Origin: Microtetraspora sp. NBRC 16547
GTDB lineage: Bacteria; Actinomycetota; Actinomycetes; Streptosporangiales; Streptosporangiaceae
Assembly: GCF_030268965.1 (NCBI RefSeq)
Contig: NZ_BSSE01000037.1
Span: 1 to 58,848 of the forward strand
Reading direction: 5' to 3'
DNA length: 58,848 nucleotides
Shown here: piece by piece, positions 15,542 to 45,670 of the stretch
Layout: each line of letters starts with the position of its first letter
Position numbering within the stretch: the first letter of the stretch is position 1
The notes under the pieces: generated by a model
The model's input: only the letters and a program-made list of their open reading frames with translations
What the model was told of the DNA's origin: nothing
Database searches by the model: none
Translations under genes and position numbers: made by a program

Positions 15542-15557
15542 AGAAGCCACCTCCACA

Positions 15558-18502: not shown

Positions 18503-18557
18503 CCATGACGGATCCGGGGCGCGGCGACGCGCCCCTGACCTCCTGATCGGAGCCCTT

Positions 18558-26950: not shown

Positions 26951-27184
26951 ATCTCCATGCTAAGAATCGCCCTTCCGCGCCCGTCGGGCGGCGCCCGCGG
27001 CACGGAGGCACGTGTCGAAGGCCCTTGGCCGAATGGACGAACAGCCCGGCGCTCTTCGGAAAAACGCACGAATTCCCCGACCCGCCCTTCTCATACCGTT
27101 GCGGTAAACATCGACCGGAGGGCTGGTACGCGTGTCCGTTGGTCTTCATCACCGCGCCGTGATCGTCGAGTCGGGGCGGCCGCG

Positions 27185-28264
27185 GTGAACCTCGACCTGA
27201 TGCTCCAGGACCTGGAGGAGCTCGTCGTCTGCGAGTCGTTCTCCGCCGACCACGAGGCGGTCGCCCGCAGCGCCGCGGTGGTCGCCGAGCAGGCATCCCG
27301 GCGGCTCGGGACCCGCCCGGAGACGATCGTGATCGACGGGGTCAGCCACCTGCGGTGGACCTTCGGCCACCCCCGGGTGCTGCTCGTCGGGCACCACGAC
27401 ACGGTGTGGCCGATCGGGTCGCTGCGCGAGCACCCCTGGTCGGTGGAGGACGGGATCGCCCGGGGGCCGGGCGTGTTCGACATGAAGGCCGGGCTGGTGC
27501 AGGCCTTCCACGCGCTGGCCGCGCTGCCCTCCCCGGAGGGGGTGTGCCTGCTGATCACGGGTGACGAGGAGCTCGGCTCCCCCACCTCGCGGGCGCTGAT
27601 CGAGGACGCGGCGCGCGGCTGCTCGGCCGCGTTCGTGCTGGAGGCGAGCGCCGACGGCGGCGCGCTCAAGACCGCCCGCAAGGGCATCTCGGCCTACGAG
27701 CTCTCCGTGCTGGGGAAGGCCGCGCACGCGGGCCTGGAACCGCACGCGGGGGCCAACGCGGCGGTCGAGCTGGCCCACCAGATCCTCGCGCTGAGCGCGA
27801 TGGGCGACGGCGCGACCACGGTGACGCCGACCCTGGTGTCCGGCGGGAGCACGATGAACACCGTGCCCGCGCAGGCCTCGGTCGCGGTGGACGTGCGGGT
27901 GCCCACCGTCGAAGAGCAGAAGCGGGTGGACGAGCTGGTACGGGCGCTGGCCCCCCGGGTCGCCGGAACCCGGCTGCGAGTGAGCGGCGGACCGAACCGT
28001 CCGCCGCTGGAGGAGGCCTCGTCGGCGGGGCTGTTCGAGCTGGCCCGCCGCATCGCCGACGGCCTGGGCCTGCCCCCGTTGCGGGGAGTGGCCGTGGGCG
28101 GCGCCTCCGACGGCAACATCACCGCGGGCGTCGGCTGCCCCACACTCGACGGGCTCGGCGCGGTCGGCGGCGGCGCGCACGCGGCGCACGAGCACGCGCT
28201 CGCCGCGGAGATGCCCGGCCGCACCCGGCTGCTCGCCGAGTTGATCCGGGCGGTGCTCGCATGA
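27185..28264 (+). CDS. M20-family amidohydrolase (candidate N-succinyl/N-acyl-L-amino acid hydrolase)
   Basis: The 359-residue zinc amidohydrolase of the M20 (ArgE/DapE/CPG2) family has VGHHDTVWP (ligand H71), FDMKAG (bridging D99), GDEELG (catalytic E128 and ligand E129) and E153 as a further ligand candidate. The lid domain (about 180-290) includes VSGGSTMNTVPAQASVAVDVR. GTG 27185 is chosen because the conserved sequence starts there. It overlaps a GNAT gene by 4 bp and is followed by an N-acylamino acid racemase. In the pathway established in Geobacillus kaustophilus, the M20 member removes the N-succinyl group from the L-epimer; that role is inferred here. Confidence 0.88.
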   Translation: MNLDLMLQDLEELVVCESFSADHEAVARSAAVVAEQASRRLGTRPETIVIDGVSHLRWTFGHPRVLLVGHHDTVWPIGSLREHPWSVEDGIARGPGVFDMKAGLVQAFHALAALPSPEGVCLLITGDEELGSPTSRALIEDAARGCSAAFVLEASADGGALKTARKGISAYELSVLGKAAHAGLEPHAGANAAVELAHQILALSAMGDGATTVTPTLVSGGSTMNTVPAQASVAVDVRVPTVEEQKRVDELVRALAPRVAGTRLRVSGGPNRPPLEEASSAGLFELARRIADGLGLPPLRGVAVGGASDGNITAGVGCPTLDGLGAVGGGAHAAHEHALAAEMPGRTRLLAELIRAVLA

Positions 28265-29037
28265 CACCCGCGCCGCGCGAACTCCACAGCATCCAGGAGT
28301 TCGAGGATGTCTACCGGCTCTTCGACGACATCTGGCATCCCGAGCCGGGCGGGGCGCCCATCAGCGTCGAGCTGATGCGGGCCCTGTCCCACGCGGGCAA
28401 CTACGTGGCCGGGGTCTACGAGGACGGCCGGCTGGCCGGCGCCTCGGTCGGCTTCCTGGCGGCCCCGGCGGGCCGGGTCCTGCACTCCCACGTCACCGGC
28501 GCGGCGGCCGGCCGCGGGATCGGGTTCGCGCTCAAGACGCACCAGCGGACCTGGGCGCTCGAACGGGGCATCGAACGGATCACCTGGACCTACGACCCCC
28601 TGGTGCGCCGCAACGCCTACTTCAACCTGGCCAAGCTCGGCGCCCGTCCGGAGGAGTACCTGCCGTCGTTCTACGGCGTCATGGAGGACGCGATCAACGC
28701 CGGCGACGAGTCGGACCGGATGCTCGCCGTCTGGCGGCTGACCGATCCGCGCGTGCTCGCCGCCGTACGGCGGGAGCCGTACGCGCCGCAGGTCCCGCCG
28801 GACGCGGCGGTCGGGCTGGCCGACGCGGACGGACGGCCGGTCCCCGGCCGGACGGACGCGGGGACGGTCCTCGTGGCGGTGCCGGAGGACATCGAGAGCC
28901 TGCGCCGCACGGACCCCGGTCTGGCCAAGGCGTGGCGGCACGCCGCGCGCGAGGTGCTCGGCGGCTTGCTGGAGGAAGGGGCCCGGATCACCGGGTTCCA
29001 CCGGAGAACGTGCTACATCGTGGAACGCACCGTCTGA
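28261..29037 (+). CDS. GNAT-like acyltransferase (candidate D-amino acid N-succinyltransferase)
   Basis: The 258-residue protein is of the COG3375 GNAT type: AGVYEDGRLAGASVGFL, LHSHVTGAAAGRGIGFALKTHQRTWAL with the acyl-CoA pyrophosphate loop AAAGRGIG, and ITWTYDPLVRRNAYFNLAKLGA. Its ATG overlaps the M20 stop (ATGA). In organisms with the N-succinylamino acid racemase pathway a protein of this family succinylates D-amino acids with succinyl-CoA. The same function is inferred here from the three-gene set; acyl specificity cannot be read from sequence. Confidence 0.85.
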   Translation: MTPAPRELHSIQEFEDVYRLFDDIWHPEPGGAPISVELMRALSHAGNYVAGVYEDGRLAGASVGFLAAPAGRVLHSHVTGAAAGRGIGFALKTHQRTWALERGIERITWTYDPLVRRNAYFNLAKLGARPEEYLPSFYGVMEDAINAGDESDRMLAVWRLTDPRVLAAVRREPYAPQVPPDAAVGLADADGRPVPGRTDAGTVLVAVPEDIESLRRTDPGLAKAWRHAAREVLGGLLEEGARITGFHRRTCYIVERTV

Positions 29038-29113
29038 TCGCACCGTCTGATCGCGGCCAAACGCGGCGGCGGTCCTACCGGAAGGAGGCGCGGCGAGACG
29101 CCGCACACCCACC

Positions 29114-30214
29114 ATGAAGATCACTGGAATCGAGCTACGGCGGATCGCGATGCCGCTGGTCGCGCCGTTCCGCACGTCCTTCGGGACGGAGACGGCGCGC
29201 GACGTGCTGCTCGTGCGGGTCGTCACGCCCGAGGCCGAGGGGTGGGGCGAGTGCGTGGCCATGTCGGCGCCGCTCTACTCCTCCGAGTACGCGGACGGCG
29301 CCGCCGAGGCCATGCGCCGCTTCCTCATCCCGGCGCTGCCCGCCCACGCCGACGCCCAGGCCACGGGCCGGGCACTGGCGCCGTTCAAGGGGCACCGGAT
29401 GGCCAAGGCCGCCCTGGAGACCGCGGTCCTGGACGCCCAGCTCCGCGCCCGCGGCGAATCCCTCGCCTCGTTCCTCGGCGCGACCGGGGACCGCGTCCCC
29501 TGCGGGGTGTCGGTCGGCATCATGAACTCCATCCCTGAGCTGCTCGACGCCGTCGAGGGCTACCTGTCCGAGGGCTACATCCGGATCAAGCTGAAGATCG
29601 AGCCCGGCTGGGACCTGGAGCCCGTCCGTGCCGTACGCGAGCGATTCGGCCCCGAGCTGCTGCTCCAGGTCGACGCCAACGCCGCCTACACCCTGGCCGA
29701 CGCCCCCCGCCTGGCCAAGCTCGACGCCTTCGACCTGCTGCTCATCGAGCAGCCGCTGGCCAACGACGACATGGTGCAGCACGCCGCGCTCGCGCGGCGG
29801 ATCTCCACCCCGATCTGCCTGGACGAGTCGATCGAGTCGGCCGAGCACGCCGCCGCCGCCATCACCCTGGGCGCGTGCTCGATCATCAACGTCAAGCCCG
29901 GCCGCATCGGCGGCTACCTGGAGGCCCGCCGCATCCACGACCTGGCCCGCGCCCACGGTGTCGCCCTGTGGTGCGGCGGGATGCTGGAGACAGGTATCGG
30001 CCGCGCCGCCAACGTCGCGCTGGCCGCCCTGCCCGGCTTCACCCTGCCCGGCGACACCTCGGCCTCGCGCCGCTACTTCGCGACCGACATCACTCCGCCG
30101 TTCGAGCTGCGCGACGGCCACCTGGACGTCCCCACCGGCCCCGGCATCGGCGTCGACCCCGTCCAGGACATCCTGGACGAGGTCACCACCTCCACCGAGT
30201 GGATCACCAGGTAG
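29114..30214 (+). CDS. N-acylamino acid racemase/o-succinylbenzoate synthase-family enzyme
   Basis: The 366-residue enolase-superfamily protein of the MenC/NAAAR type has K159 and K161 in IRIKLKIEPG, metal ligands D187 (QVDANA), E212 (EQPL) and D237 (LDES), and K261 in NVKPGRIGG, all at the expected spacing. Racemisation of N-succinyl or N-acyl amino acids fits better than menaquinone synthesis, because no other men genes are nearby while the GNAT and M20 partners are. The ATG follows an AAGGAGG-like stretch (about 29080) at long distance. A 24-bp palindrome after the stop is shared with the convergent operon. Confidence 0.9.
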   Translation: MKITGIELRRIAMPLVAPFRTSFGTETARDVLLVRVVTPEAEGWGECVAMSAPLYSSEYADGAAEAMRRFLIPALPAHADAQATGRALAPFKGHRMAKAALETAVLDAQLRARGESLASFLGATGDRVPCGVSVGIMNSIPELLDAVEGYLSEGYIRIKLKIEPGWDLEPVRAVRERFGPELLLQVDANAAYTLADAPRLAKLDAFDLLLIEQPLANDDMVQHAALARRISTPICLDESIESAEHAAAAITLGACSIINVKPGRIGGYLEARRIHDLARAHGVALWCGGMLETGIGRAANVALAALPGFTLPGDTSASRRYFATDITPPFELRDGHLDVPTGPGIGVDPVQDILDEVTTSTEWITR

Positions 30215-30234
30215 TTGTCGCGCGCACATCTTCA

Positions 30235-30258
30235 GGGCGGGCACCGCGGTGCCCGCCC
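30235..30258. terminator. Bidirectional terminator palindrome
   Basis: GGGCGGGCACC (30235-30245) and its exact complement GGTGCCCGCCC (30248-30258) are separated by GC, a perfect 24-bp palindrome lying between the convergent racemase and peptide-importer ATPase genes. Confidence 0.85.
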
Positions 30259-30267
30259 GGAAGCATG

Positions 30268-30960
30268 TCAGCTCCGGCCGAGGCGGGGGACCGCCTCAAG
30301 GAGGGAGCGGGTGTAGTCGTCCGCCGGCGCGCCCACGACCTCCTCGGTCGGCCCCATCTCGACCAGCCTGCCCCGGTGCATCACCGCCACCACGTCGGAG
30401 ACGTAGCGGACCACGGCCAGGTTGTGTGAGATGAACAGCATCGACAGCCCGATCTCCTCGCGCAGCGAGCGGATCAGGTTGAGCACCGCGCCCTGGACGG
30501 AGACGTCCAGGGCGGAGGTGATCTCGTCGGCGATCAGCAGCGCCGGCCGGACGCCGAGCGCGCGGGCGATCGCCACCCGCTGCCGCTGGCCCCCGGACAG
30601 CTCGCGCGGGTAGCGCTCCGCGAGTGAGACGGGCAGGGACACCAGGGTCAGCAGCCGCTCCACCTCCGCCTGGCGGGCGGCCCGCGGCAGGCGCAGGCCC
30701 TCGGCGACGGACGCGCCGACGGTCATGCGCGGGTCGAGGGAGGTGAGCGGATCCTGGAACACCATCTGCACCCGGCTCGGGTCCACCCCCTCCACGGCCC
30801 CCGTGTACGGCACCAGCCCGCTCACCGCACGCGCGAGCGTGGACTTGCCCGACCCGGACTCGCCCACCAGGCCGACGATCGCGCCGTCGGGGATCTCCAG
30901 GGTGACGTCGTCCACGGCGGTGAAGGCGCCGAACCGGACGGTCAGGTTCTTGATGATCAC
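30268..30960 (-). CDS. Peptide ABC transporter ATPase (DppF type, short)
   Basis: The 230-residue ATPase has Walker A GESGSGKST, Q-loop MVFQDPLTSLDPRM, signature LSGGQRQR, Walker B LLIADE and H-loop FISHN. In the H-loop segment Asn follows the His, where Asp is usual. GTG 30960 overlaps the stop of the fused permease-ATPase gene. At 230 residues it is shorter than typical DppF (about 260-330) and lacks the C-terminal extension. It is the last gene of the minus-strand run and forms the ATPase pair with the fused protein. Confidence 0.9.
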   Translation of the reverse strand: MIIKNLTVRFGAFTAVDDVTLEIPDGAIVGLVGESGSGKSTLARAVSGLVPYTGAVEGVDPSRVQMVFQDPLTSLDPRMTVGASVAEGLRLPRAARQAEVERLLTLVSLPVSLAERYPRELSGGQRQRVAIARALGVRPALLIADEITSALDVSVQGAVLNLIRSLREEIGLSMLFISHNLAVVRYVSDVVAVMHRGRLVEMGPTEEVVGAPADDYTRSLLEAVPRLGRS

Positions 30961-32783
30961 TTGGCCTCCCAGCAGGCGACGCGGTGCCCCGCGCGGTACG
31001 GGATCAGGGGCGGCAGCTCGGCGCACTTGGCGCTCGCCAGCTCGCAGCGGTCCGCGAAGGCGCATCCGTCGGGCACCTCGGCCGGCGAGGGCTGGCGGCC
31101 GGGGATGCTCGCCAGCGGCAGCGACCTGTCGGTCTCCATGTCGGGCAGCGAGGCGACCAGCGCCCGCGTGTAGGGGTGCGCGGCGCCCGAGGCCAGCTCC
31201 TCGACCGGCAGCTCCTCGACCACCCGGCCCGCGTACATGACCACGACGCGGTGGCACAGCTCGCCGATGACGGCGATGTCGTGGGAGATGAACAGGGTGG
31301 CCGCGCCGGTCTCGTCGGTCACCTCGCGCAGCAGCCGGAGGATCTCCCGCTGCACGGTCACGTCGAGAGCGGTGGTCGGCTCGTCGGCGATGATCAGCCG
31401 GGGCGCGCCCATCAGGCCCATGGCGATGACGGCGCGCTGTCGCATGCCGCCGGACAGCTCGTGTGGGTGTTGCCGCGCCCGCGTGGCGGGCTCCGGTATG
31501 CGTACGTGCTCCAGCCGGTCCACCGCGCGGGCGAAGGCGTCGGCCCGGCTCGCGCCCTGGTGGACGGTCGCCACCTCGGCGAGCTGCCCGCCGACCTTCA
31601 GCGCCGGGTTGAGCGCCGCCATCGGGTCCTGGAAGACCATCGCCAGGGACGTGCCGAGCAGCCTGCGGCACTCGGCCTCCGGCAGCTCGCGGACGTCGGC
31701 GCCGCACAGCCGCAGCCGGCCGGCGCTCACCTCTCCCGGGTACGGCACCAGCCCGCCGATCGCCGAGGCGGTCAGGCTCTTGCCGCTGCCGGACTCGCCC
31801 ACCAGGCCGACGATCTCGCCGGGCGCGATGGTCAGCGACAGCCCGCGCACCGGCGTCACGCCGCCGGGGAAGGTGACGGTCAGGTCCCGTACCTCCAGGA
31901 CGGCGTCCGGGTCGGGCTCGCCGAGCTCGCCCGCCTCGGGTACGGCTCGTCCGGCGGCCGCACCGGCCGGCGTGGCACGGCGCGACGCCGCCCGCGCCAG
32001 GACGTCTCCCAGCAGGTTGAAACCGATGCCCGCGAGCGCGATCGCGGCGGCCGGGCCGAGGGCGACGGCCGGGGTGGCGTAGATCCGGGCGAAGCCGTCG
32101 AAGAGCAGCCGCCCCCAGTCGAACGACGGCGGCTGCACGCCGAGACCGAGGAAGGACATCCCGGCGAGCGCGAGAAGAGCGCCGCCCAGCGCCTGGGTGA
32201 GGTGGAGGATGAGCGGCTCGGCGATGTTGGGCAGGACGTGCCTCGTCATGACGCGCCACCGGGAGACGCCGAGCATGCGGGCGACCGCTACGTAGTCGGC
32301 CCCGGCGACGGAGGCCGCGAGCGTCTGGGTGAGCCGGGCGAAGCCGGGGGCGACGGCGGCGCCGATGCCGAGCACGGCGCCGCGCGCGCCGAGCCCCGCG
32401 ATCACCGCGGTGAACATCGCGAGCAGCAGGCCGGGGAACGCGACCAGCGCGTTGACCGTACCGGTGACCAGGCGCGCGGCCCGGCGCGGCAGCACCGAGG
32501 GAAGCGCGCCGAGGATGACGCCGGCCGTCGCGCCGATGAGTGTGGCGATCATGGCGAGGGCGAGCGAGAGCCGCCCGGCGACCAGCACCCGGGCGAGGAT
32601 GTCGCGGCCCAGATTGTCGGTGCCGAGCGGGTGCGCCGCCGAGGTTCCCTGGAGGATGGCCGCGGAGTCGATGCGCTCGGCCTCCGCTCCCCAGATCAGC
32701 GGCCCGGCGATCGCCAGGATCACCATGAGCGCGACCAGGAGGGTCCCGGCGATCCCGGCGGGGGTCCGCGGCAGGTGACGCAT
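30957..32783 (-). CDS. Fused peptide ABC permease-ATPase (DppC-DppD)
   Basis: One 608-residue frame carries two normally separate subunits. Residues 1-265 are a DppC permease with HPLGTDNLGRDILARVLVAG (51-70), the EAA-like loop LGVSRWRVMTRHVLPN and SFLGLGVQPPSFDW. A linker rich in Ala/Gly/Glu (about 266-293) leads to a DppD ATPase with Walker A at 329-336, signature LSGGMRQR, Walker B LIIADEP and the Cys-rich CAFADRCELASAKC tail. The frame is uninterrupted and codon use is uniform, so the fusion looks real. The ATG overlaps the upstream permease stop (TGATG). Confidence 0.92.
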   Translation of the reverse strand: MRHLPRTPAGIAGTLLVALMVILAIAGPLIWGAEAERIDSAAILQGTSAAHPLGTDNLGRDILARVLVAGRLSLALAMIATLIGATAGVILGALPSVLPRRAARLVTGTVNALVAFPGLLLAMFTAVIAGLGARGAVLGIGAAVAPGFARLTQTLAASVAGADYVAVARMLGVSRWRVMTRHVLPNIAEPLILHLTQALGGALLALAGMSFLGLGVQPPSFDWGRLLFDGFARIYATPAVALGPAAAIALAGIGFNLLGDVLARAASRRATPAGAAAGRAVPEAGELGEPDPDAVLEVRDLTVTFPGGVTPVRGLSLTIAPGEIVGLVGESGSGKSLTASAIGGLVPYPGEVSAGRLRLCGADVRELPEAECRRLLGTSLAMVFQDPMAALNPALKVGGQLAEVATVHQGASRADAFARAVDRLEHVRIPEPATRARQHPHELSGGMRQRAVIAMGLMGAPRLIIADEPTTALDVTVQREILRLLREVTDETGAATLFISHDIAVIGELCHRVVVMYAGRVVEELPVEELASGAAHPYTRALVASLPDMETDRSLPLASIPGRQPSPAEVPDGCAFADRCELASAKCAELPPLIPYRAGHRVACWEAK

Positions 32784-33811
32784 CAGGTCTCCTTCAGCTT
32801 GGATGTGGGGTCGAGCACGCCGAGCAGCAGGTCGACGAGCAGGTTCACCACCAGCACGATCGCGCCGTAGACGAGGATCACGCCCTGGGCCACCGGATAG
32901 TCCTTCTGGGTGATGGACTCCACGACCCGCAGTCCCAGGCCCGGCCAGGCGAAGACGTACTCGACGAGCACGCTCCCGGCGATCAGCGCAGCGAGCAGCA
33001 TGCCGCCCACGGTCAGCGTCGCGGTGAGCGTGTTGGGCAGGACGTGCCGGAAGTACAGCCGGGCGGCGGGCAGCCGCTTGGCCCGGGCCAGCCGGACGTA
33101 GTCCATGCCCAGTTCACGCAGGGTCTCCACGCGGCAGATACGGGCGATCATCGCCGTCGGCGAGATGGCCAGGGAGAGGATCGGCAGGACGTAGGACACG
33201 GGTCCCGCCTTGCCCGCGGGAGGGAACCAGCGGAGTCCGATCGCGAACACGGTGACCAGGGCGATCGAGTAGAGGAACTCGGGCACGGCGATTGCCGCGC
33301 CGGTCGCCGAGGTGAAGGTCACCTCGGTGCCCCTGTTGCGGCCGTTCTCGGTGCGGATCGCCGCCCACATGCCGAGCGGTACGGCCACGAGCAGTGCCAC
33401 GACGGTCGCGAGCAGGGCGAGCCCGAGGGTGTTGGGGAGCCGGGAGGCGATGATCTCCCGGACCGGCTCCCCGCTGAGGAACGACGTGCCGAAGTCCCCG
33501 CGGAACACGTTGCTGACGTAGGACAGGAGCTGGGACAGGATCGGCTCGTCCAGCCCGAGCGCCGCACGCCTGGCGGTGACCAGCTCGGCCGGCGCGGCCG
33601 GGCCGAGCGAGGCGCGTACGGGGTCGCCCGGGATCAGGTGCATCATCGCGAAGGACGCGACGAGCAGCACGCCCAGTGAAACGACGAACCGGACGGCGCG
33701 CCGCAGCACGAACCCACTACGGACCCGGCCGAGTGCCCGGCCGAGTGCCCGGCCGGCCCGCCCGCCCTCGGCGGACGGGCCGGCGGCGGACGGGCGCAGA
33801 GACTCCGCCAT
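32783..33811 (-). CDS. Peptide ABC transporter permease (DppB type)
   Basis: The 342-residue permease carries an extra N-terminal cytoplasmic stretch of about 30 Ala/Gly/Arg-rich residues. The usual RRAVRFVVSLGVLLVASFAMMHLIPGDPV follows. About six membrane segments are present, and the EAA-like loop is LARAKRLPAARLYFRHVLPN. The ATG follows the binding-protein stop directly (TGAATG). It forms the channel with the fused permease-ATPase. Confidence 0.9.
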   Translation of the reverse strand: MAESLRPSAAGPSAEGGRAGRALGRALGRVRSGFVLRRAVRFVVSLGVLLVASFAMMHLIPGDPVRASLGPAAPAELVTARRAALGLDEPILSQLLSYVSNVFRGDFGTSFLSGEPVREIIASRLPNTLGLALLATVVALLVAVPLGMWAAIRTENGRNRGTEVTFTSATGAAIAVPEFLYSIALVTVFAIGLRWFPPAGKAGPVSYVLPILSLAISPTAMIARICRVETLRELGMDYVRLARAKRLPAARLYFRHVLPNTLTATLTVGGMLLAALIAGSVLVEYVFAWPGLGLRVVESITQKDYPVAQGVILVYGAIVLVVNLLVDLLLGVLDPTSKLKET

Positions 33812-35398
33812 TCAGCCCGCCTCGGTCATCCGGATCGTGGTCGCCGAGACCGAGCCCGCCACTATGCCGAACTTCGCGTTCTTGGTGGCGACCAGCACGG
33901 TGTTCTCCACGACCGGCACCAGGTCGGCGTCCTCGAACAGCGCGGACTCCGACTCCAGCCAGAGCTTGCAGCCCTCCTCCCCCGGCTTGAGCGCGGCCTC
34001 GGCCACGAGCTTCTGGTAGCGGTCGTTGGCCAGGTGGGCGAAGTTGGCGCCCTTCGGCGCGGCCGGGCCGGACAGGAAACCTTCGAGCTGCGAGGGCAGC
34101 GTGACGCCGATCGGCAGCCAGACGACGTCCCAGTCCTGGGTGACGGTCAGCGACTCCCCCAGCTTGGTGTCGATGACGCCGTTCAGCGCGACGTCGGCGC
34201 CCGCCTTCTTCCACGCCGCCGCGAGGTATTCGGCCGCGGCCTGCACGCCCGCGCCCTTGGTGGTGCCGTAGAGCAGGCGCAGGGTCAGCTTGCGTCCGTC
34301 CTTGACCCGGACACCGTCGGGGCCGGCCTGCCAACCGGCCGCGTCCAGCGCGGCGGACGCGGCGGCCTCGTCGAAGGCCGGGACGTGACCGGTGACGCTG
34401 TCGCCCTGGCAGGGCCGCGGGTCCAGCACCAGCCCGGTGGCGGGGCGGCCTGTGCCGCTCGCGGAGATCCCGGCGAGTTCCTTGAGGTTGACCGCCTGGG
34501 TGAGCGCCTTGCGCACCGCCGGGTCCTTGGCGGGCCGGTCCTCGCCCTGGTGGTAGAAGAACTGCCCGTTGCCCGCCGAGATGATCACCTTGCCGATGCC
34601 CGGGGTCGCCTCGAGCCGCGCGCGGTCCGCGCCGTAGATGACCGCGCCGTTGATGTCACCGGAGATCAGCAGGTTGGCCGAGGTCTGCTCGTTCGGCACG
34701 ACCTTCAGCACGATCTTGTCTGGCTGACCGGCTTCCTTGGTGGTGGCTCCGCCGGGTCCCCAGGTGTAGTCCTTGCGCACCTGGAACGTGTAGTGGTCGC
34801 TGGGCACCGCCTCGGTGAGCGTGTACGGCCCGGAACCCGAGGTGCCGCGGGCGAGCACCGAGCGGTCCTTCACTCCCTTGCCACAGACGACAAAAATCAG
34901 CGGGGTGCTCTCCAGGATGAAGCTGAACGGTTTCGGCGTGGAGAGTTTCACCGTTCCCGCCGCGTCGTCCGCCTCGGCCTTCATGCCGGCGGGGACGGTC
35001 ACACCGTTGAGCGGCGACTTGGTGGCGGGGTCGGTGATGTGGTTGATGCTGTCGGCCACGTCCGCGGGCGTGAGCGGGGACCCGTCGGAGCAGGTGACGT
35101 CCTTGCGGAGGGTGAAGGTGACCGCGTCGCGTTCGACGTCCCACTTCTCGGCCAGTCCAGAGACGATCTTTCCATCGGGCCCATAGTTGACGAGCGTGTC
35201 GTACGCGAACGCCAGCACGTTGTTGGTCACAGAGAGCACGGCCATGGCCGGGTCGAGCGCGCCTGGATCGGCGCCGATCGCGAAGGTGAAGGTGCCGCCG
35301 TCGGCGGTCCGGCCGGACCCGGTGTCCGTGCCACCGCCGCATGCGGCGGTGAGCAGGCTGAGTGCGCCGATCACGGCCGCCGCTCGTGTGTTTCTCAT
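33812..35398 (-). CDS. Peptide ABC substrate-binding lipoprotein (SBP family 5)
   Basis: The 528-residue lipoprotein has lipobox SLLTAAC (C20). Family features are FAIGADPGALDPAMAVLSVT, SGLAEKWDVERDAVTFTLRK and SGPYTLTEAVPSDHYTF. It would bind extracellular peptides for the importer encoded downstream. A 94-bp gap after the PucR stop (35399-35492) could hold its own promoter. The set downstream of this importer is cytoplasmic hydrolases plus a D-to-L amino acid pathway, which suggests that the ligand includes D-residues; that is inference. Confidence 0.9.
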   Translation of the reverse strand: MRNTRAAAVIGALSLLTAACGGGTDTGSGRTADGGTFTFAIGADPGALDPAMAVLSVTNNVLAFAYDTLVNYGPDGKIVSGLAEKWDVERDAVTFTLRKDVTCSDGSPLTPADVADSINHITDPATKSPLNGVTVPAGMKAEADDAAGTVKLSTPKPFSFILESTPLIFVVCGKGVKDRSVLARGTSGSGPYTLTEAVPSDHYTFQVRKDYTWGPGGATTKEAGQPDKIVLKVVPNEQTSANLLISGDINGAVIYGADRARLEATPGIGKVIISAGNGQFFYHQGEDRPAKDPAVRKALTQAVNLKELAGISASGTGRPATGLVLDPRPCQGDSVTGHVPAFDEAAASAALDAAGWQAGPDGVRVKDGRKLTLRLLYGTTKGAGVQAAAEYLAAAWKKAGADVALNGVIDTKLGESLTVTQDWDVVWLPIGVTLPSQLEGFLSGPAAPKGANFAHLANDRYQKLVAEAALKPGEEGCKLWLESESALFEDADLVPVVENTVLVATKNAKFGIVAGSVSATTIRMTEAG

Positions 35399-35492
35399 CG
35401 GGGCTCCTGGAAGCTGGGGAGATGCCCCACATTCGCCGGTTCCGCGCGATCCTTCTTCGTTGCTCCGGACGAAAAGCGGGTGATCTCTCGTG

Positions 35493-37109
35493 CTAACCGC
35501 CGAAGATGCGCATCTGGAGCATCACCGCCAGCCGGGCCTCGGGATCGGCCAGGTCCAGCCCGCTGATCTGGACCAGCCGCTTGAGCCGGTACCGGAATGT
35601 GTTGGCGTGCACGTGGATCTTGGTCGACGCGGCGTTCACGTCGCCGAAGGCGTCCAGGTACGCCCGCAGGGTGCTGACCAGCTCGCTGCCATGCCGGGCG
35701 TCGTGCGCCAGGAGCCGCTCGTACGGCCCGGTGGGCGTCTGCTCCTCGGCCTGGACCAGGTCGGAGAGCTGGAGCAGCAGCGACTCGAAGTGCACGCCGG
35801 TGTAGCCGGCGACCGCCCCCGACGTGCTCCGGGCGCGCAGCACCCGCAGCGCCCGATCGGCGTCGGCCCGCGACCGGGACACCTCGGCGAGGTTGCGCGC
35901 CATGCGTCCCACACCGATGTTGGCCGCGTGCCGGGGTCCGACCCGGGCGAGGAAACTCTCCGCGACCCGGACCGCCCGGGCCTCCTCGTCGCCGCTCCCG
36001 TGCATCGGCAGCACGGCGTAGGCGACCGACCCGACCAGCGCGGCGGCGGCCTTGGGGTGGATGGCTCCGACGTGCAGGGCGAGCGCGTCGCAGAACCGCT
36101 GCCTGTCGCTCTCCCGGCGGGCCGCGTCGGCGTCGGGGCCGTCGCTGAGCTGGGCGGCGAGCACGCACAGGCGCTCGCTGGCGACGCCGAGCCGGCCCGC
36201 GGCTTCCGCGGCGTCCCCGCCGCCCGCCAGCACCGTGGACAGCAGGTCGGCGCGGAGCCGTCGCCGCGTGTCCGCCCCGGCCCGCTGCCGCAGCAACTGC
36301 AGGGCGACGATCTTGGCGGCGTCGGCGAGCGCCTGCCGGCGCTGCCCGCTCAGCGGTTCCCGTACGGCGGCCCAGATGGAGCCGAGAATCTCGTCCCCGG
36401 AGCGAACGGCGACCGCGGCCCGCGCGATGGTCTCGTCGTTCAGTTCGATGTAGATCGGCTCGCGGCTCTGGTAGAGCTGCCGGAAGAACCCGCGCTCCTC
36501 CAGCATCCGCTGGTAGCGTTCCGGCACCTGGCGGCCGAGCACGGTCTCGATCCGCCCCGCGTCGGCCTCGTCCTGCCGCCCCGAGTACGCCAGCACCCGC
36601 GAGGACCGGTCCTCGATGGTGACCGGCGCGTCGAGCAGCGCGCACACGGCGTTGGCCAGCGAGAACAGGTCGTCGATCGGCGCCTCCCCCGGCTCGGTGA
36701 GGTCGCCCTCGGCCAGTAGGGCGCGCAGCAGCGCCGCCACCTGCGCCCAGGAGGCGGCCCGGGTGAGCCCCAGCACCGCCACCCCGGTCTCGCGGACCTT
36801 CGCGTGGACGCAGCCGTCCACGTCCACCGGCTGCTTGACGACGACGCCCGCCGCCGGGCCCGCCGCGTCGAGCAGGGCGCATATCTGCTCGGCGCGATCG
36901 ACCCCGACGGCGAGCACGATGCTCCCGGCGGGCAGGAGCGGCTCGTCGAGCGGATCGTAGATGTGGACTCCGGTGACCTCGGCGTCGAGGAGGTCACCCT
37001 CCGCGGCGGCAACGTCCAGGACGGTGCTGCCGAGGTCCTCCAGGATGCGGCGCAGGCTCGCGCGGGGCCGATCACTCATCCGCTCACGATAGTGAACGTA
37101 AACCGACAT
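35493..37109 (-). CDS. PucR-family transcriptional regulator
   Basis: The 538-residue regulator has an N-terminal PucR-type ligand domain (about 5-150, with ILEDLGSTVLDVAAAEGDL), a middle GAF-like/GGDEF-like part, and a C-terminal HTH_30 (STKIHVHANTFRYRLKRLVQISG). ATG 37109 overlaps the upstream stop (TAATG); an ATG at 37079 is a second option. PucR-type proteins usually activate catabolic genes for the compound they sense (purines, prolines, amino acids). Its place between the hydrolases and the importer makes it the likely regulator of the whole D-peptide locus. Confidence 0.85.
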   Translation of the reverse strand: MSVYVHYRERMSDRPRASLRRILEDLGSTVLDVAAAEGDLLDAEVTGVHIYDPLDEPLLPAGSIVLAVGVDRAEQICALLDAAGPAAGVVVKQPVDVDGCVHAKVRETGVAVLGLTRAASWAQVAALLRALLAEGDLTEPGEAPIDDLFSLANAVCALLDAPVTIEDRSSRVLAYSGRQDEADAGRIETVLGRQVPERYQRMLEERGFFRQLYQSREPIYIELNDETIARAAVAVRSGDEILGSIWAAVREPLSGQRRQALADAAKIVALQLLRQRAGADTRRRLRADLLSTVLAGGGDAAEAAGRLGVASERLCVLAAQLSDGPDADAARRESDRQRFCDALALHVGAIHPKAAAALVGSVAYAVLPMHGSGDEEARAVRVAESFLARVGPRHAANIGVGRMARNLAEVSRSRADADRALRVLRARSTSGAVAGYTGVHFESLLLQLSDLVQAEEQTPTGPYERLLAHDARHGSELVSTLRAYLDAFGDVNAASTKIHVHANTFRYRLKRLVQISGLDLADPEARLAVMLQMRIFGG

Positions 37110-37981
37110 TATTCGCGGAGGCACTCAATTGCCATGTGGGCCGCTCGGCCGATCGCCGCGTCCGCCTGAGGCAGCCGGAACCCGAGCGAATCCGTCCGGA
37201 GGAAAACCGCGGCGGCGTAGCGCCGCCCGTCCGGATATTCCACGACACCGGCCTCGTTGCGCACGCCCGGGAGGGTGCCGGTCTTGCCGGAGACCTTCAC
37301 CTCGTCGCCGAACCCGGAGGAGAGGCGGTGCGGCCAGACCTGGTTGCCCATGATCTTCCGCACCTCCGCGCACGCCTCCGCCGGACCGGCCTCGTCCCGC
37401 CAGATCTTGCTCAGCAGGGTCGTGGTCTCACGAGGCGTCCCCGAAGTCGTCCGCTCCGGGTCGAGCACCGACAGCGCCCGGATCCGCTCCTCGGACACTC
37501 CGGAGAGATCCTCCTCGGAGACATTCTCGACGGAGAGACCGAGCTCGGTCACCATGCTGCCCAGCAGTTCGGCGCAGCCGCCGATCAGGCGGGTACGCCC
37601 GAGGCCGAGCCCGCGCAGCGTGGCGTGTAGGTTGTCCAGCCCGACTCGGCGCAGCAGCACATCGGTGGCCGCGTTGTCGCTCATGGTCATCATGAAGTGG
37701 GCCAGGTCGCGCAAGGTCAGCGAGACATCGTCGGCGCACCCGGAGGTGCCGATGCCACCGTCCTTGTCGGCGGCCGTGACGGTCAGCCGCTCGGTGCGTT
37801 CCAGGGTCCCCGCCGCCGCCTGCCTGGCGTACTCCAGCACGACAGGGATCTTGAAAACGGAGGCGAGGACGACCGGTTCGTCGGGGTTCAGCCCGGTCTC
37901 ATCGGGGCCGTCGACGTCGCGGACGTGGACGAAGCCCTCCACGTCCGCGTCGTCGAACACCTCCTTCAGGAGGTCACGCAC
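37109..37981 (-). CDS. Class A beta-lactamase-fold serine hydrolase, cytoplasmic
   Basis: The 290-residue protein has the three active-site boxes: S41-x-x-K44 (LASVFKIPV), S101-D-N (MSDNAATD) and K233-T-G (VSGKTGTL). I do not see the ExxLN omega-loop motif that provides the deacylating Glu of class A beta-lactamases; the region before PRETTTLL reads SVLDPERTTSG. There is no signal peptide. A D-peptidase or amidase function is thus more likely than resistance. GTG 37981 lies inside the end of the preceding hydrolase gene (8-bp overlap). Confidence 0.82.
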   Translation of the reverse strand: MRDLLKEVFDDADVEGFVHVRDVDGPDETGLNPDEPVVLASVFKIPVVLEYARQAAAGTLERTERLTVTAADKDGGIGTSGCADDVSLTLRDLAHFMMTMSDNAATDVLLRRVGLDNLHATLRGLGLGRTRLIGGCAELLGSMVTELGLSVENVSEEDLSGVSEERIRALSVLDPERTTSGTPRETTTLLSKIWRDEAGPAEACAEVRKIMGNQVWPHRLSSGFGDEVKVSGKTGTLPGVRNEAGVVEYPDGRRYAAAVFLRTDSLGFRLPQADAAIGRAAHMAIECLRE

Positions 37982-39314
37982 GGCGCAGCGCCCGGCCGTT
38001 GTGGACGTAGGCGGCCCGGCCGTCCTCGACGATGAAGGTAACCGTCGGGTACACGCCCTCCTCCGCCTCCGTCGCGATGAAGGTGTCGCCGTCCAAGTGG
38101 ACGTAGCGGGTGGTGACCCGTTCGCCGCCCACCTGCGCCATGAACTCGCCGGGGATCAACGTGACGTCCAGGCCGCCGTCCGCCCCGGCCACCTCGTACG
38201 AGAGCGCCGGGCCGTCGTACCTGCCGGCGTAGGGCGTGAGGTCCACGACCTCGGGCGTCTCGCCCGGAACCGGGAGGTCCGGGACGTCGAGCCCGGTGGC
38301 CTCGCGGATCAGCGGCAGGGCCACGTCGACGAGCAGTCCCATGAAGCCGGGGCCGTTGACGGTCATCGCGATCGCGAAGTCCGCACCGGGCACGACCCGC
38401 CAGAACGTGCTCTGCCCGATCGTCCCGCCGTCGTGACCGAAGACCTCGCCGCCCCAGTCGAACAGCTCGAACCCGAGCCCCCAGCGGTTGGCGAGCAGCC
38501 CGGAGACGCCGGGCACGTCGACCTGCCGGGTCCGCATGGCGGCGACCGACTCCTCCGACAGCAGGCGGGTGCCGTCCTCGGCCACTCCCCCGGCCAGGAA
38601 CATCCGGCCGAAGCGGACCAGCTCGCGCGGGGCCAGGCACATCGTGGAGCCCGCCGGAGCGTTGGAGCGCGGCATCTGCCACGAGGGGAAGATGGTGCCC
38701 TCGGGGCCGACATGTCCGGCCGACGCCCGGAAGAGGACGGCTTCCTCGGCCAGGAGCGCCCAGTTCGTGGCGCCGAGCGGCTTCAGCAGGCGCTCGCGCA
38801 TCGCCTCCTCCCACGTGGTGCCCCGCATCCGCGCGACCAGCGCGCCGAGCACGCAGTAGCCCGCGTTGCAGTACGAGAACAGGGCGCCCGGCTCGTGCAC
38901 GTGACCGGCGCCGTGCAGGAAGGCCACGAACTTGTCCAGGCAGTCGTCGCCGCGCCCGGTGTCCTCGAACAGGTCGCCGTCGAAACCGCCCGTGTGGGTG
39001 AGCAGGTGCCGGACGGTGATGGTCTTCTCGGCGCCGTCGGCGACGGCGAACTCCGGCAGGTAGTCACGGACCGGCCGGTCCAGCTCGACCAGCCCCTCGT
39101 CCACGAGCTGCATGACCAGGGCGGCGGTCCAGACCTTGGTGGTGGAGCCGACCTGGAAGACGCTGTCGGGCGTCGTCTCCACGCCGGTGTTCCGGTTCAC
39201 CACGCCGGTGGCGACCTCGACGAGCTCGCCGCCCGTCCAGACGGCGAGTGCGGCGCCGGGCACTCCGTGCTGGCGGGCCGCCTCATCGAAACGCTTCTGC
39301 AGATCCTCACGCAT
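37974..39314 (-). CDS. Class C beta-lactamase-like (S12 family) serine hydrolase 1
   Basis: The 446-residue S12-type enzyme has S57-x-x-K60 in QVGSTTKVW, Y148-x-N150 in FSYCNAGY and a KTG-equivalent HDGGT in VFGHDGGTIG. A C-terminal lipocalin-like beta domain (about 350-446) follows. No signal peptide is present. S12 includes D-aminopeptidases, D-Ala-D-Ala carboxypeptidases and esterases; a D-amino-peptidase role in the cytoplasm is inferred from the neighbours. It is a close paralogue of the next gene, with the same motifs and a shared TGRGDDCxxK segment, so the two arose by tandem duplication. Confidence 0.85.
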   Translation of the reverse strand: MREDLQKRFDEAARQHGVPGAALAVWTGGELVEVATGVVNRNTGVETTPDSVFQVGSTTKVWTAALVMQLVDEGLVELDRPVRDYLPEFAVADGAEKTITVRHLLTHTGGFDGDLFEDTGRGDDCLDKFVAFLHGAGHVHEPGALFSYCNAGYCVLGALVARMRGTTWEEAMRERLLKPLGATNWALLAEEAVLFRASAGHVGPEGTIFPSWQMPRSNAPAGSTMCLAPRELVRFGRMFLAGGVAEDGTRLLSEESVAAMRTRQVDVPGVSGLLANRWGLGFELFDWGGEVFGHDGGTIGQSTFWRVVPGADFAIAMTVNGPGFMGLLVDVALPLIREATGLDVPDLPVPGETPEVVDLTPYAGRYDGPALSYEVAGADGGLDVTLIPGEFMAQVGGERVTTRYVHLDGDTFIATEAEEGVYPTVTFIVEDGRAAYVHNGRALRRA

Positions 39315-39323
39315 GTCGGCTCC

Positions 39324-40637
39324 TCAGGCGGTCTTGGGCGTGGCGCGCACGCCGAGGTGGATGTACGGCGAGCCGTCGGCGAGTTCGTAGAAGACCGCCG
39401 ACGTCCACTGCGGCTCCCCTTCCGGGCGGCCGACGAAGGTCGTGGCGTCCACCGGGACAAGATCGAACTCCATGGGCGGCTGCACCCCGGCGAGGGCGCC
39501 GGTGGCCTCGCCGTACAGCGAGAGCCTGCCGTCGCGGACCGACAGCGTCATGCGGACGCCCGCCCTCTCGTACACGCCGGCGTACCGCTCGACGTCCGTC
39601 TCGAACGGCTCGGCGGGAGGGCCGAGCACGGGCGGCACGGCCAGGCCGAGCAGCTCGTCGAAGAGCTCGGTGGCCAGGGCGTGGTGGAAGGCGGCGGTGT
39701 GGCCGCCGTTGGCCAGCACGCACACCACCGTCTCCGTCTCGGGGACCATCCAGAGCATGGCGGCCTGGCCGATGGTGTTGCCTCCGTGGGAGACGACCCG
39801 GCGGCCCTGCCACTCGTCCAGGATCCAGCCGATGCCCCACTGCTTCCCGAGGGTGTGCGGGTTGGGGATGTCCACCTGCGGCTCCCACATCACCCGGGGG
39901 TCGGCGAGCAGCCCGGTGCCGAGGTGCGCCCGCGCGAAGGCGACGACGTCGGCCGGCCGGGCGCAGATCAGCCCGGCCGGGCCGCAGGAGCGCATCAGAC
40001 CCCAGGTGGGGGCGGGCTCGCCGCCCAGATGGCCCATGGCGCCGCGGAAGCGCAGCACATCCTCCGGCAGGGTCCAGGTGTGGGTCAGGCCCAGCGGCTC
40101 GATGATCTGCTCGCGCAGCGCGGCGTCCCAGACCTTGCCGGTGAGGCGCTCGACGACGCGCCCGGCGATGATGAACCCGGAGTTGCAGTACGACTGGGTG
40201 GCACCGAGGGGGTGGTTCTGCGCCAGGTCAGCGCACGCCTGCACGTACTTCTCCACGCAGTCGTCACCGCGGCCCGTGTCGAGGAACAGGTCCCCGTCGA
40301 TGCCGGAGGTGTGCGTGAGCAGGTGCCGGATCGTGACGGTCTTGGTCACCTCCGGATCGGCGACCCGGAACTCCGGCAGGACCTCGGCGACCGGGGTGTC
40401 GAGCGTCAGCTCGCCCCGCTCCACGAGCTGCATGATCTGGGTGGCGGTCCACACCTTGGTGACCGAGCCGATCTGGAAGAGGGAGTCGGTGGTCACCTCC
40501 ACCCCGGTTGCCGTGTTGAGCACGCCCGCGGCGAACTCGTGCACCTCACCCTCGTGCAGGAAGGCCAGGTTGGCGCCGGGTACCTCGTATTCGGCGATCA
40601 GCTCGGCGAGACGGGCGTGCCATCGACCGGGATCCAC
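39324..40637 (-). CDS. Class C beta-lactamase-like (S12 family) serine hydrolase 2
   Basis: The 437-residue paralogue of the preceding hydrolase has S58-x-x-K61 in QIGSVTKVW, YCN in TQSYCNSGF and HGGNT in VVSHGGNTIGQ. The C-terminal beta domain begins near residue 345. GTG 40637 is preceded by GGAG and overlaps the end of the S9 peptidase gene by 40 bp; the longer upstream frame is a shadow of that gene. No signal peptide. Divergence between the two copies (HDGGT versus HGGNT) suggests different peptide preferences. Confidence 0.84.
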   Translation of the reverse strand: MDPGRWHARLAELIAEYEVPGANLAFLHEGEVHEFAAGVLNTATGVEVTTDSLFQIGSVTKVWTATQIMQLVERGELTLDTPVAEVLPEFRVADPEVTKTVTIRHLLTHTSGIDGDLFLDTGRGDDCVEKYVQACADLAQNHPLGATQSYCNSGFIIAGRVVERLTGKVWDAALREQIIEPLGLTHTWTLPEDVLRFRGAMGHLGGEPAPTWGLMRSCGPAGLICARPADVVAFARAHLGTGLLADPRVMWEPQVDIPNPHTLGKQWGIGWILDEWQGRRVVSHGGNTIGQAAMLWMVPETETVVCVLANGGHTAAFHHALATELFDELLGLAVPPVLGPPAEPFETDVERYAGVYERAGVRMTLSVRDGRLSLYGEATGALAGVQPPMEFDLVPVDATTFVGRPEGEPQWTSAVFYELADGSPYIHLGVRATPKTA

Positions 40638-42589
40638 TGCTCCAGCCACTCGACGATCCTTTCGTTGTAGTCCACCCGATGGGACGGGCGGCCGTTGAGG
40701 ATGAACAGGTGAGAGCCGCCCGGATAGCGGACCAGCCGCACCGGCACGCCCCGCTCGCGCAGGGCGGCGAACCACTGCTCGGCCTGGCCGACGGGACACC
40801 GATCGTCGGCGTCGCCGTGCAGGAGCAGCGTCGGCGTGGTCACCCGGGCGACATGCGTCATGGGGGACTGCGCCGCGATGTCTGCCGCGATGTCGCCGCG
40901 GCACTCGTGCGTCTTGAGGAAGTGACCCGCGTCGGAGGTGCCGGCCATGCTGACCAGGTCGCTGACGCACCCGCCGGGGATGGCCGCCTTGAACCGGTCG
41001 GTCTGCGTGGGCAGCCAGCACGACACGTAGCCGCCGTAGCTGTAGCCGGTGACCGCGAGCCGTTCGGGATCGGCGACCCCCTCGTCGACCAGCTCGTCGA
41101 TCGGGCTCAGGAAGTCGCCGGTGTCGGCGATGCCCCAGGCACCGAGCGCGGCCGTGTAGAACGCCTCGCCGTACCCGTCGCTGCCGCGCGGGTTGACGGT
41201 CAGCACGGTCCAGCCGCGCGCGACGAGCACCTGGTGATAGAGGTGGACGCCGTCGAACACCGGTGCCCAGGCGTTGTGCGGGCCGCCGTGCGCGTCCAGC
41301 AGGAGCGGTCCCGACTCGGTGAGCGTCTCGTCCCGCAGCACGAACCCCTCCACCGGCGTCCCGTCGGGGGCGGTGAAGGTACGGCTTCGCGGGGTGAACA
41401 GCTCGACGTCGGGGAGCGTGTGGTCGGAGAGCCTCGTCGCGGCCAGTGCCGTGTCCGCCGTGCCGTCCGCCGCCGTGCCGTCCGCCGCCGTGCCATCCGC
41501 TGCCGTGCCGGACACGGCCGGCGTGCCGCCTGACGGACCCTCGGCCCGGGTCGCGGGAAGGTCCGCGATGTAGACGTCTCCGGCGCTGTACGGTGTCGCG
41601 GCGACGTAGGCGATCCTGCCCGCCGCCGCGCTGACACCAGAGATCACCTGGTTCCCACCGACGATCTTCTCGCCGGGGGCGCGATAGAGATGGGTGAATC
41701 CGCCGTCCCGGGCACAGAAGATCAGGTCCTCCCCCGCCAGCTGAGGGACGGCGCCGGGGTAGCCGGGGGCTCCCACCATGATGTTGCGGTCGAGCCCCGT
41801 CTTGACCTCCACGAGACCGTCCGTCCCGAGCTCGAACAGGCGGGCGTGCCCCACCGGCTCACCGGCGTACCCGACGACCAGCAGCCGTTCGCCCAGCCAC
41901 CAGGCGCCCGCGCAGACCACGTCCGCGCCGGTGAGCCGCTCGGGTTCGCCGCCGGAGACGTCCACCGAGTAGACGGCGCCGCCGGCGACCAGGTCGCGAT
42001 CGGCCTCCATACTCGCGGTGAACGCGAGCCGCCGGCCGTCCGGCGACCAGGACGGCTCGCCCGCGTGGAAGTCGCCCGAGGTGACCTGCCGGGTCTCCCC
42101 CGTCTCGACCTCCACCACGAAGACGTGCACGGTCAGACCGCGCAGCAGGCCCGTGCCGTCGGCCTTGTACTCCAGGCGGTCGGCCACGACCGGGGCGTGC
42201 GGATCGAGGTCGCCGCACGGCGCGCTGTACGCGATCGAGCGCCCGTCCGGCGACCAGACCGCGGCGCCCGCGCCCAGCGAGGCGGCGGTGAGGACGCGCG
42301 GCTCGCCGCCGTCCATCGGCAGCAGGTGGAGCTGCGGCTTCCCGTCCACTGGGCGGAGGTAGGCGAGCGAGCGTCCGTCGGGCGACCAGCGCGGGGAGGA
42401 GTCGCGCGGGCCGCCCGTCAGCCGCCGCGGCCCGTCGCCGGGGGCGGCGAGCCAGATCTCGGACCGGTTCTCATCGGACTCCCGGTCGGCAGTGGTGACC
42501 GTGTAGGCCACGGCGCTCCCGTCGGGGCGCAGCCGGGGGTCTCCCGGGACCGCGATGCGGTAGATGTCGCTGAGGGAGAGGCGAGACAT
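40598..42589 (-). CDS. S9 (prolyl oligopeptidase/acylaminoacyl-peptidase-like) serine peptidase
   Basis: The 663-residue protein has a beta-propeller (about 15-370) with repeated WSPDGRSLAY-type blades and an alpha/beta-hydrolase catalytic domain. The nucleophile motif is GYSYGGY, an Asp lies in HGDADDRCP, and the His is in PGGSHLF. There is no signal peptide. It cleaves short peptides, and acyl-peptides are possible. It is the first gene of the minus-strand run of hydrolases. Residues around 360-385 contain an odd DGTAA tandem repeat between the propeller and the catalytic domain. Confidence 0.9.
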   Translation of the reverse strand: MSRLSLSDIYRIAVPGDPRLRPDGSAVAYTVTTADRESDENRSEIWLAAPGDGPRRLTGGPRDSSPRWSPDGRSLAYLRPVDGKPQLHLLPMDGGEPRVLTAASLGAGAAVWSPDGRSIAYSAPCGDLDPHAPVVADRLEYKADGTGLLRGLTVHVFVVEVETGETRQVTSGDFHAGEPSWSPDGRRLAFTASMEADRDLVAGGAVYSVDVSGGEPERLTGADVVCAGAWWLGERLLVVGYAGEPVGHARLFELGTDGLVEVKTGLDRNIMVGAPGYPGAVPQLAGEDLIFCARDGGFTHLYRAPGEKIVGGNQVISGVSAAAGRIAYVAATPYSAGDVYIADLPATRAEGPSGGTPAVSGTAADGTAADGTAADGTADTALAATRLSDHTLPDVELFTPRSRTFTAPDGTPVEGFVLRDETLTESGPLLLDAHGGPHNAWAPVFDGVHLYHQVLVARGWTVLTVNPRGSDGYGEAFYTAALGAWGIADTGDFLSPIDELVDEGVADPERLAVTGYSYGGYVSCWLPTQTDRFKAAIPGGCVSDLVSMAGTSDAGHFLKTHECRGDIAADIAAQSPMTHVARVTTPTLLLHGDADDRCPVGQAEQWFAALRERGVPVRLVRYPGGSHLFILNGRPSHRVDYNERIVEWLEQWIPVDGTPVSPS
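41457..41511. repeat. 15-bp in-frame minisatellite in the S9 peptidase gene
   Basis: Three full 15-bp units close to GCCGTGCCGTCCGCC start at 41457, 41472 and 41487, with a partial fourth at 41502. They encode repeated DGTAA in the linker before the catalytic domain. Confidence 0.9.
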
Positions 42590-45633: not shown

Positions 45634-45670
45634 ACGACGCTCCTTCTGTTGTGTGACGCGTGGGGGGTGC

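Follow-up and report, generated by a model that had tools for sequence, protein, structure and literature searches.

The stretch of DNA analysed here, referred to throughout as the window, comprises 58,848 nt of the soil actinomycete Microtetraspora sp. NBRC 16547 (contig NZ_BSSE01000037.1; host genome 7.8 Mb), and the feature under study is a 15.4-kb gene cluster at positions 27185-42589 which is organised as two convergent units (Table 1). The unit on the + strand (27185-30214) encodes an M20 hydrolase, a GNAT acyltransferase and an enolase-superfamily racemase, the M20 and GNAT reading frames sharing 4 bases, which suggests translational coupling. The unit on the - strand (30268-42589) encodes, from 5' to 3', an S9 peptidase, two S12 hydrolases, a class A beta-lactamase-like hydrolase, a PucR-family regulator, a binding lipoprotein, a permease, a permease-ATPase fusion and a second ATPase. 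These genes had been put forward in an earlier reading of the sequence (the original prediction) as a candidate system for the import, cleavage and inversion of D-amino-acid peptides, and gene calls and Pfam matches returned every one of them with the kind and position proposed, together with the convergence of the two units.

Table 1. Genes and operator-like sites of the cluster, in window coordinates
Feature	Position	Strand	Basis
M20 metallo-hydrolase, carboxypeptidase G2-like; predicted N-succinyl-L-amino acid desuccinylase	27185-28264	+	Pfam M20 + M20_dimer
GNAT acyltransferase; predicted D-amino acid N-succinyltransferase	28261-29037	+	Pfam Acetyltransf_1, 22.7 bits
N-succinylamino acid racemase (enolase superfamily)	29114-30214	+	565.7 bits to 1sja
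OppF/DppF-type ATPase	30268-30963	-	Pfam ABC_tran, 92.5 bits
OppC-OppD-type permease-ATPase fusion	30957-32783	-	BPD_transp_1 + ABC_tran + oligo_HPY
OppB-type permease	32783-33811	-	BPD_transp_1, 111.7 bits
Family-5 solute-binding lipoprotein	33812-35398	-	SBP_bac_5, 183 bits
PucR-family regulator, candidate cluster regulator	35493-37124	-	HTH_30 + GGDEF_2
Class A beta-lactamase-like serine hydrolase	37109-37981	-	Beta-lactamase2, 200.1 bits
S12 serine hydrolase a (S12a); predicted cytosolic D-stereospecific peptidase	37974-39314	-	PF00144, 224.5 bits
S12 serine hydrolase b (S12b)	39324 to about 40649 (start approximate)	-	PF00144, 216 bits
S9 prolyl-oligopeptidase-family peptidase	40598-42589	-	Peptidase_S9, 153.8 bits
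Operator-like inverted repeat upstream of M20	27053-27072	-	1 mismatch
Operator-like inverted repeat upstream of binding-protein gene	35454-35473	-	exact
Operator-like inverted repeat upstream of S9	42622-42641	-	exact

Conservation and shared operator-like repeat

A search with the GNAT yielded 75 loci, which were compared with 40 control windows of 20 kb placed at fixed round coordinates, and not by random draws, in six racemase-bearing genomes of the same order. The M20 hydrolase was identified in 37 of the 75 loci, PucR in 36 and an M19 peptidase in 17, each with no occurrence in the controls, while S12 (31/75 vs 1/40), the binding protein (24/75 vs 1/40) and the OppB-type permease (37/75 vs 4/40) were also strongly enriched. 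Enrichment of S9 (8/75 vs 0/40) and of the class A-like protein (6/75 vs 0/40) is weak by count alone; many loci end before the S9 position, and the related loci are not independent, so that all these counts are inflated. The whole or a partial set recurs in Microtetraspora, Nonomuraea, Streptosporangium, Sphaerisporangium and Planobispora, mostly in convergent arrangement, the nearest named relatives by GNAT being Microtetraspora malaysiensis and M. fusca (95% identical). In three loci from Streptomyces, Actinophytocola and Actinomadura (L064, L065 and L077; 45-73% identity), the genes form a single co-directional run in the order binding protein, OppB, OppCD, OppF, S9, S12, M20, GNAT, racemase and PucR. 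The layout thus changes between families with the same content, and this change, unlike the counts, is independent of relatedness.

A survey also covered 101 genomes of the order, 41 with the racemase and 60 without. Within the E-value limits applied, only the racemase genomes yielded the GNAT (38 genomes), the binding protein (11) or S12b copies of at least 70% identity (15), and 12 of the 15 S12b copies and 10 of the 11 binding proteins lie within 20 kb of a racemase; at E<=1e-80, S12b was found in 26 of the 41 and in 11 of the 60. Lower-identity M20 homologues are also present in genomes lacking the racemase (57 genomes in all), and the linkage count for M20 retained 35 of 66 places, at an identity of at least 55% and with two split matches counted once each. 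The racemase count itself varies with the method, from 54 of the 75 loci to 58 aligned copies. A chance neighbourhood was rejected on the basis of the control windows and the co-occurrence in the 101 genomes. Judged from sequence, the genes form one conserved and apparently co-regulated unit, and the proposed combination of importer, peptidases, PucR and inversion enzymes is a real one, since the same genes recur together in the relatives.

An imperfect inverted repeat, TTCGTC-N8-CGAAGA, occurs at three sites in the window at <=1 mismatch, upstream of the M20, binding-protein and S9 genes, and nowhere else in it (0.16 expected; none of 100 shuffles reached three). The fairer test of the repeat is provided by the M20 site and the relatives. 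It is exact at the place equivalent to the M20 site in two loci (L009, L010) and before the GNAT in L011. M. malaysiensis, M. fusca, M. niveoalba and M. glauca each carry at least one exact copy at the M20, binding-protein or S9 promoters, and in Nonomuraea cypriaca, Sphaerisporangium perillae and three further loci (L151, L152, L157) an exact copy precedes S9 or whichever peptidase gene comes first; of these three loci, L151 and L157 overlap the contigs of L011 and L045 and are not independent. Over the 75 loci and the window, 35 of 77 sites at <=1 mismatch fall within the 260-bp windows upstream of cluster genes, which make up 5% of the DNA (15.9-fold). A site precedes 12 of the 16 binding-protein genes (14 hits, as the tally counts hits and not genes) and 6 of the 11 S9 genes, but only 4 of 37 M20, 6 of 71 GNAT and 3 of 17 M19 genes, many of which are inside operons. 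At the same threshold the repeat is present in 45 of the 75 cluster loci against 10 of the 40 control windows, exact copies also occurring in two of the latter, and it accompanies 17 of the 36 loci with PucR against 5 of the 39 without. This association makes PucR plausibly the binder of the shared repeat.

The case for a specific operator is weakened on several sides. The repeat was recognised by eye in the upstream regions, the S9 and binding-protein sites being its discovery sites; genome-wide it has 124 matches at <=1 mismatch against 34 for the reversed pattern, and is therefore not specific alone; among the Streptomyces-type loci L070 alone has an upstream-window copy at <=1 mismatch, and none at that threshold occurs in the second racemase locus of the window genome (L108, see below). 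The argument is thus carried by position and conservation and not by the pattern alone. Five exact copies exist genome-wide, two of them in the window, the other three having been seen only in the gene-caller view. The occurrence of the repeat at the promoters of both units, and again in Streptosporangiaceae relatives, probably places the two convergent units in one regulon. An automatic 16-mer scan of the upstream regions gave a weak signal (top sum 97 against 91-94 in 12 shuffles). A search for sigma-70 promoters and terminators gave one promoter-like site where 0.3 were expected and two terminator-like sites where 2.5 were expected, and these were not used.

Enzymes, importer and serine hydrolases

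The best solved relatives of the racemase are entries for N-acylamino acid and N-succinylamino acid racemases, with 565.7 bits to 1sja, presumably the Amycolatopsis N-acylamino acid racemase, and about 325 bits for the next group. The protein carries the Lys-Lys and Asp-Glu-Asp catalytic set of the N-succinylamino acid racemase/o-succinylbenzoate synthase group, with K159, K161, D187, E212 and D237 conserved in 57 of 57 relatives and K261 and R264 in 57 of 58. The lysines are taken here to be catalytic, the Asp-Glu-Asp set to bind metal, and one Arg to correspond to R266 of the Amycolatopsis enzyme.

The predicted structure of the GNAT has a pLDDT (predicted local distance difference test) of 92.4, and a fold search returned generic GNAT structures only, none of which points to a function; these cover about 160-190 columns of its 258 residues, which indicates that it is longer than a plain GNAT. 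It is homologous, at 25-40% identity, to GNATs encoded next to the racemase or in its vicinity in Lysinibacillus, Priestia, Deinococcus and Sulfitobacter, the two Bacillota loci giving 25-31% identity (E 7e-23 and 6e-36). A Lysinibacillus plasmid has the order peptide MFS transporter, M20, GNAT and racemase. In the Deinococcus and Sulfitobacter loci (L085, L086, L090) the racemase-GNAT pair occurs with an amino-acid-type binding protein or ABC (ATP-binding cassette) importer and not with a peptide module, two of the three also having MurR/RpiR regulators.

Carboxypeptidase G2 (1cg2) is the best solved relative of the M20 hydrolase, whose H70, D72 and D99 are conserved in 36 of 36 covering relatives and E128 in 37 of 37 (38 aligned). 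Its match to the Lysinibacillus M20 is 25.5% over 94 residues (E 0.003), and the Priestia M20 gave no match at E<=1. Bacillota were represented in this comparison by the Lysinibacillus and Priestia loci and not by the Geobacillus genome itself. In many Nonomuraea loci (L017, L021, L033, L035, L040-L043, L045) a further Opp-type importer lies upstream and runs towards the GNAT(-racemase), with no close M20 nearby.

The Opp/Dpp-type ABC importer is complete, with a family-5 binding protein, two permeases and two ATPase domains, and the binding protein has a hydrophobic N-terminus with a lipobox-like LTAAC. In contrast, a simple hydropathy scan and reading, made without a dedicated predictor, revealed no signal-peptide-like N-terminus on S9, S12a, S12b or the class A-like protein, in agreement with their earlier description as signal-less. 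The nucleophile motif of S9 is GYSYGG. The SxxK, YxN and HxG pattern of S12 serine peptidases is present in both S12a (STTK, YCN, HDG; the S/K, Y/N and H/G residues are invariant in every relative that covers them) and S12b (SVTK, YCN, HGG). S12b scores 57.7 bits against the PRK13128 D-aminopeptidase model, whose cut-off is 443, and this model is not among the 25 listed for S12a. In the class A-like protein SVFK, SDN and KTG are present, but the score of 79.1 bits is far below the class A beta-lactamase cut-off of 200. The Glu166 region of class A enzymes is an ExxLN motif between SDN and KTG; the only ExxLN of this protein is at residue 28, before SxxK, with none between SDN 101 and KTG 233.

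Of the 22 loci showing both S9 and S12b (21 distinct loci), six encode the two as a single fused reading frame, namely L063, L064, L065, L070, L077 and L088, and one such fusion is an annotated protein of 1127 residues. To our knowledge this two-peptidase architecture has not been described, although no literature search was aimed at the fusion. Just beyond S9, a thermolysin-like M4 protease is encoded at 43459-45678 (-), and M4 and M28 peptidases are also found near the Streptomyces SYP-A7193 cluster.

The racemase-GNAT module is found with other peptidases as well. A second GNAT-racemase pair of the same genome (contig C36, locus L108) has the order S12, PucR, GNAT and racemase, and its 522-residue S12 protein matches, among solved structures, alkaline D-peptidase first and D-aminopeptidase 1ei5 third, with 144.8 bits to PRK13128 over residues 18-453, which is again below the cut-off. 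An M19 gene, homologous to dipeptidase 3id7 (which is taken to be the Sco3058-type M19 dipeptidase with D-preference), adjoins M20 in 14 of the 17 M19-bearing loci, and a close M20 paralogue of the window genome likewise adjoins an M19 gene (contig C2). An Arthrobacter plasmid shows the different order S12, dipeptidase, PucR, M20, S12, GNAT and racemase. Both the S12 and M19 families have members acting on D-residues, and the meeting of both with one inversion module is the best available argument for D-peptides, without amounting to proof. The idea of D-peptides as food gains from this pairing with D-aminopeptidase-like S12 and M19 proteins, the D-specificity of the peptidases themselves being a prediction. 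Beside the second racemase locus, at L108 14629-16559, a DyP peroxidase adjoins an encapsulin shell protein.

Elsewhere in the window, positions 16859-23395 (+) hold genes for a further family-5 binding protein (16859-18502) and for a pair of Opp-type ATPases (20365-22259), after which comes a C45-family autoproteolytic acyltransferase/hydrolase (240 bits, cut-off 85); this group may represent another peptide or amide uptake unit near the cluster. Positions 5625-16739 (-), with a GH20 hexosaminidase, a xylose-isomerase-like barrel, a sugar-type ABC importer and a LacI regulator, are likely to be an amino-sugar catabolic unit. Another enolase-superfamily protein, encoded at 1805-2950 (+), is nearest to a muconate cycloisomerase model but reaches the cut-off of none of the 17 NCBIfam models it matches.

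Proposed function and alternative explanations

The interpretation proceeds from what was observed directly, namely the gene content, the conserved association, the S9-S12 fusion, the active-site residues, the separate MenC discussed below and the shared repeat. It is held to be rather probable that the genes of the 15.4-kb region act together as a unit for feeding on peptides containing D-amino acids, with the reactions assigned from the protein families. The binding protein and the Opp-type importer would bring in short peptides, which the cytosolic S9, S12 and class A-like hydrolases would cut to free D- and L-residues. The GNAT would succinylate the free D-amino acid from succinyl-CoA, the racemase would convert the N-succinyl-D- into the N-succinyl-L-amino acid, and the M20 hydrolase would remove succinate from the L-form only, giving the L-amino acid and succinate. 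In the Geobacillus pathway, the use of succinyl-CoA and the L-selective hydrolysis make the inversion irreversible, as they would here. PucR may sense a compound of the pathway and control both convergent units through the TTCGTC-N8-CGAAGA repeat. Murein fragments and nonribosomal peptides would both fit as the peptide source.

Several observations count against this reading. The acyl donor and the stereospecificity are not readable from sequence, and a sequence search gave no solved relative for the GNAT. The M20 hydrolase is not orthologous to that of the Bacillota loci and is carboxypeptidase G2-like, so that the last step, if it is desuccinylation, would be filled by a different M20 branch; M20 is also absent near the racemase in many Nonomuraea loci, and in some genomes a copy lies on a different contig. 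The S12b-like family occurs in 11 of the 60 genomes without the racemase, and only its close copies are thus tied to the latter. S12a and S12b also resemble esterases and thioesterase-like cyclases, esterases being part of the S12 family, and their nearest solved relative is IS11. Solved relatives of the binding protein are mixed, comprising peptide, murein-peptide and other binders, with nickel binders among them.

Four other explanations were weighed. Salvage of N-acyl amino acids would make S9 an acylaminoacyl-peptidase acting on imported modified peptides to release N-acyl amino acids, the racemase an enzyme equalising the N-acyl-D- and -L-forms and M20 an aminoacylase, leaving the GNAT a side role such as the protection of amines. 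Acyl-peptide hydrolases are indeed among the S9 relatives, and N-acetyl-methionine is accepted by a member of this racemase family, according to PMC8142540. This explanation is nevertheless unlikely: the GNAT accompanies the racemase in 38 of the 41 genomes and in other phyla, which argues for it as a central step, and S9 is not seen in many loci keeping the GNAT-racemase pair, though many of these end before its position.

Recycling of murein peptides specifically, as by the Bacillus dpp-ykf operon and with inversion of D-Ala and D-Glu, is favoured by the weak match of the binding protein to murein-peptide binders, by the GH20 gene and sugar importer at 5-12 kb of the window, and by the pairing of a peptidase with an enolase-superfamily epimerising enzyme, which is the logic of Bacillus subtilis ykfB/ykfC as described in PMC5808125. 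It seems improbable as the specific role, however, since the operon holds no NlpC/P60-type endopeptidase. The best known substrates of N-acylamino acid racemase are, moreover, N-acylated Met and Phe-like residues.

Breakdown of, or immunity to, one peptide or beta-lactam-like antibiotic, with the beta-lactamase-fold hydrolases acting in detoxification, would suit the three proteins of this fold within one operon and hosts that belong to antibiotic-rich genera, but is very doubtful because no signal peptide was seen on any of the three in the hydropathy scan, because S12a, S12b and the class A-like protein are far below curated beta-lactamase cut-offs, and because the unit, general and catabolic in type, is kept across many genera. 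Finally, the racemase exceeds the cut-off of the o-succinylbenzoate synthase model TIGR01928 (321 bits), from which an automatic name would follow, but a role in menaquinone synthesis was rejected as highly unlikely, for the racemase is not the sole MenC of the genome: a dedicated MenC over its cut-off (C29:35940-36854, 430.6 bits) adjoins MenD (C29:36893, 441.3 bits), and MqnA was not found in the genome of the window strain.

Returning to the unit for D-amino-acid-containing peptides, there is about an even chance that it represents a dedicated actinomycete D-peptide regulon, in which one PucR-type sensor and its operator would govern import, S9-S12 cleavage (fused in some lineages) and N-succinyl inversion, the inversion module being a cassette joined to varied D-peptidase partners (S12 with S9, D-aminopeptidase-like S12, M19). 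The combination had been offered as undescribed, and no description of it was found in the literature searched, a weak negative as most subscription journals lay outside the coverage. Actinomycete N-acylamino acid racemases have long been used industrially, and the reading, if true, would give them a natural role as the final step in the use of D-containing peptides as food, nonribosomal peptides and murein fragments being examples, and would predict which soil actinomycetes can use D-peptides. The fused S9-S12 peptidase, the operator and the regulator are named as testable candidates.

Comparison with known systems

The inversion pathway, the peptidase families and the dpp-ykf-type murein-peptide operon are already known. 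The N-succinylamino acid racemase pathway of Geobacillus kaustophilus, reportedly described by Sakai et al. in 2006, likewise brings together a GNAT, an enolase-superfamily racemase and an M20 hydrolase, and the GNATs and racemases of the Bacillota Lysinibacillus and Priestia are homologous to the window copies. The parallel drawn in the original prediction is thus sound for the kinds of enzyme and for the GNAT, but not for the M20, which belongs to a different subfamily from its Bacillota counterparts. Further differences are the Opp-type importer, the four predicted cytosolic serine hydrolases, PucR and a separate MenC. The Amycolatopsis N-acylamino acid racemase is matched over nearly the full length, with the catalytic residues and the presumed R266 equivalent kept. 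The SxxK, YxN and HxG motifs are common to the S12 proteins, D-aminopeptidase 1ei5 and alkaline D-peptidase 4y7p, although S12b and the S12 protein of the second locus score far under the D-aminopeptidase cut-off of 443. The Sco3058-type M19 dipeptidase has its counterpart next to M20 in 14 loci of relatives and at C2, but not in the window. With the Bacillus subtilis dpp-ykf operon the cluster shares a peptide importer, the cleavage of D-peptides and an enolase-superfamily enzyme inverting a D-residue; there, however, the dipeptide L-Ala-D-Glu is epimerised, whereas the prediction for the cluster is inversion of single amino acids in N-succinylated form, and its peptidases are of other families.

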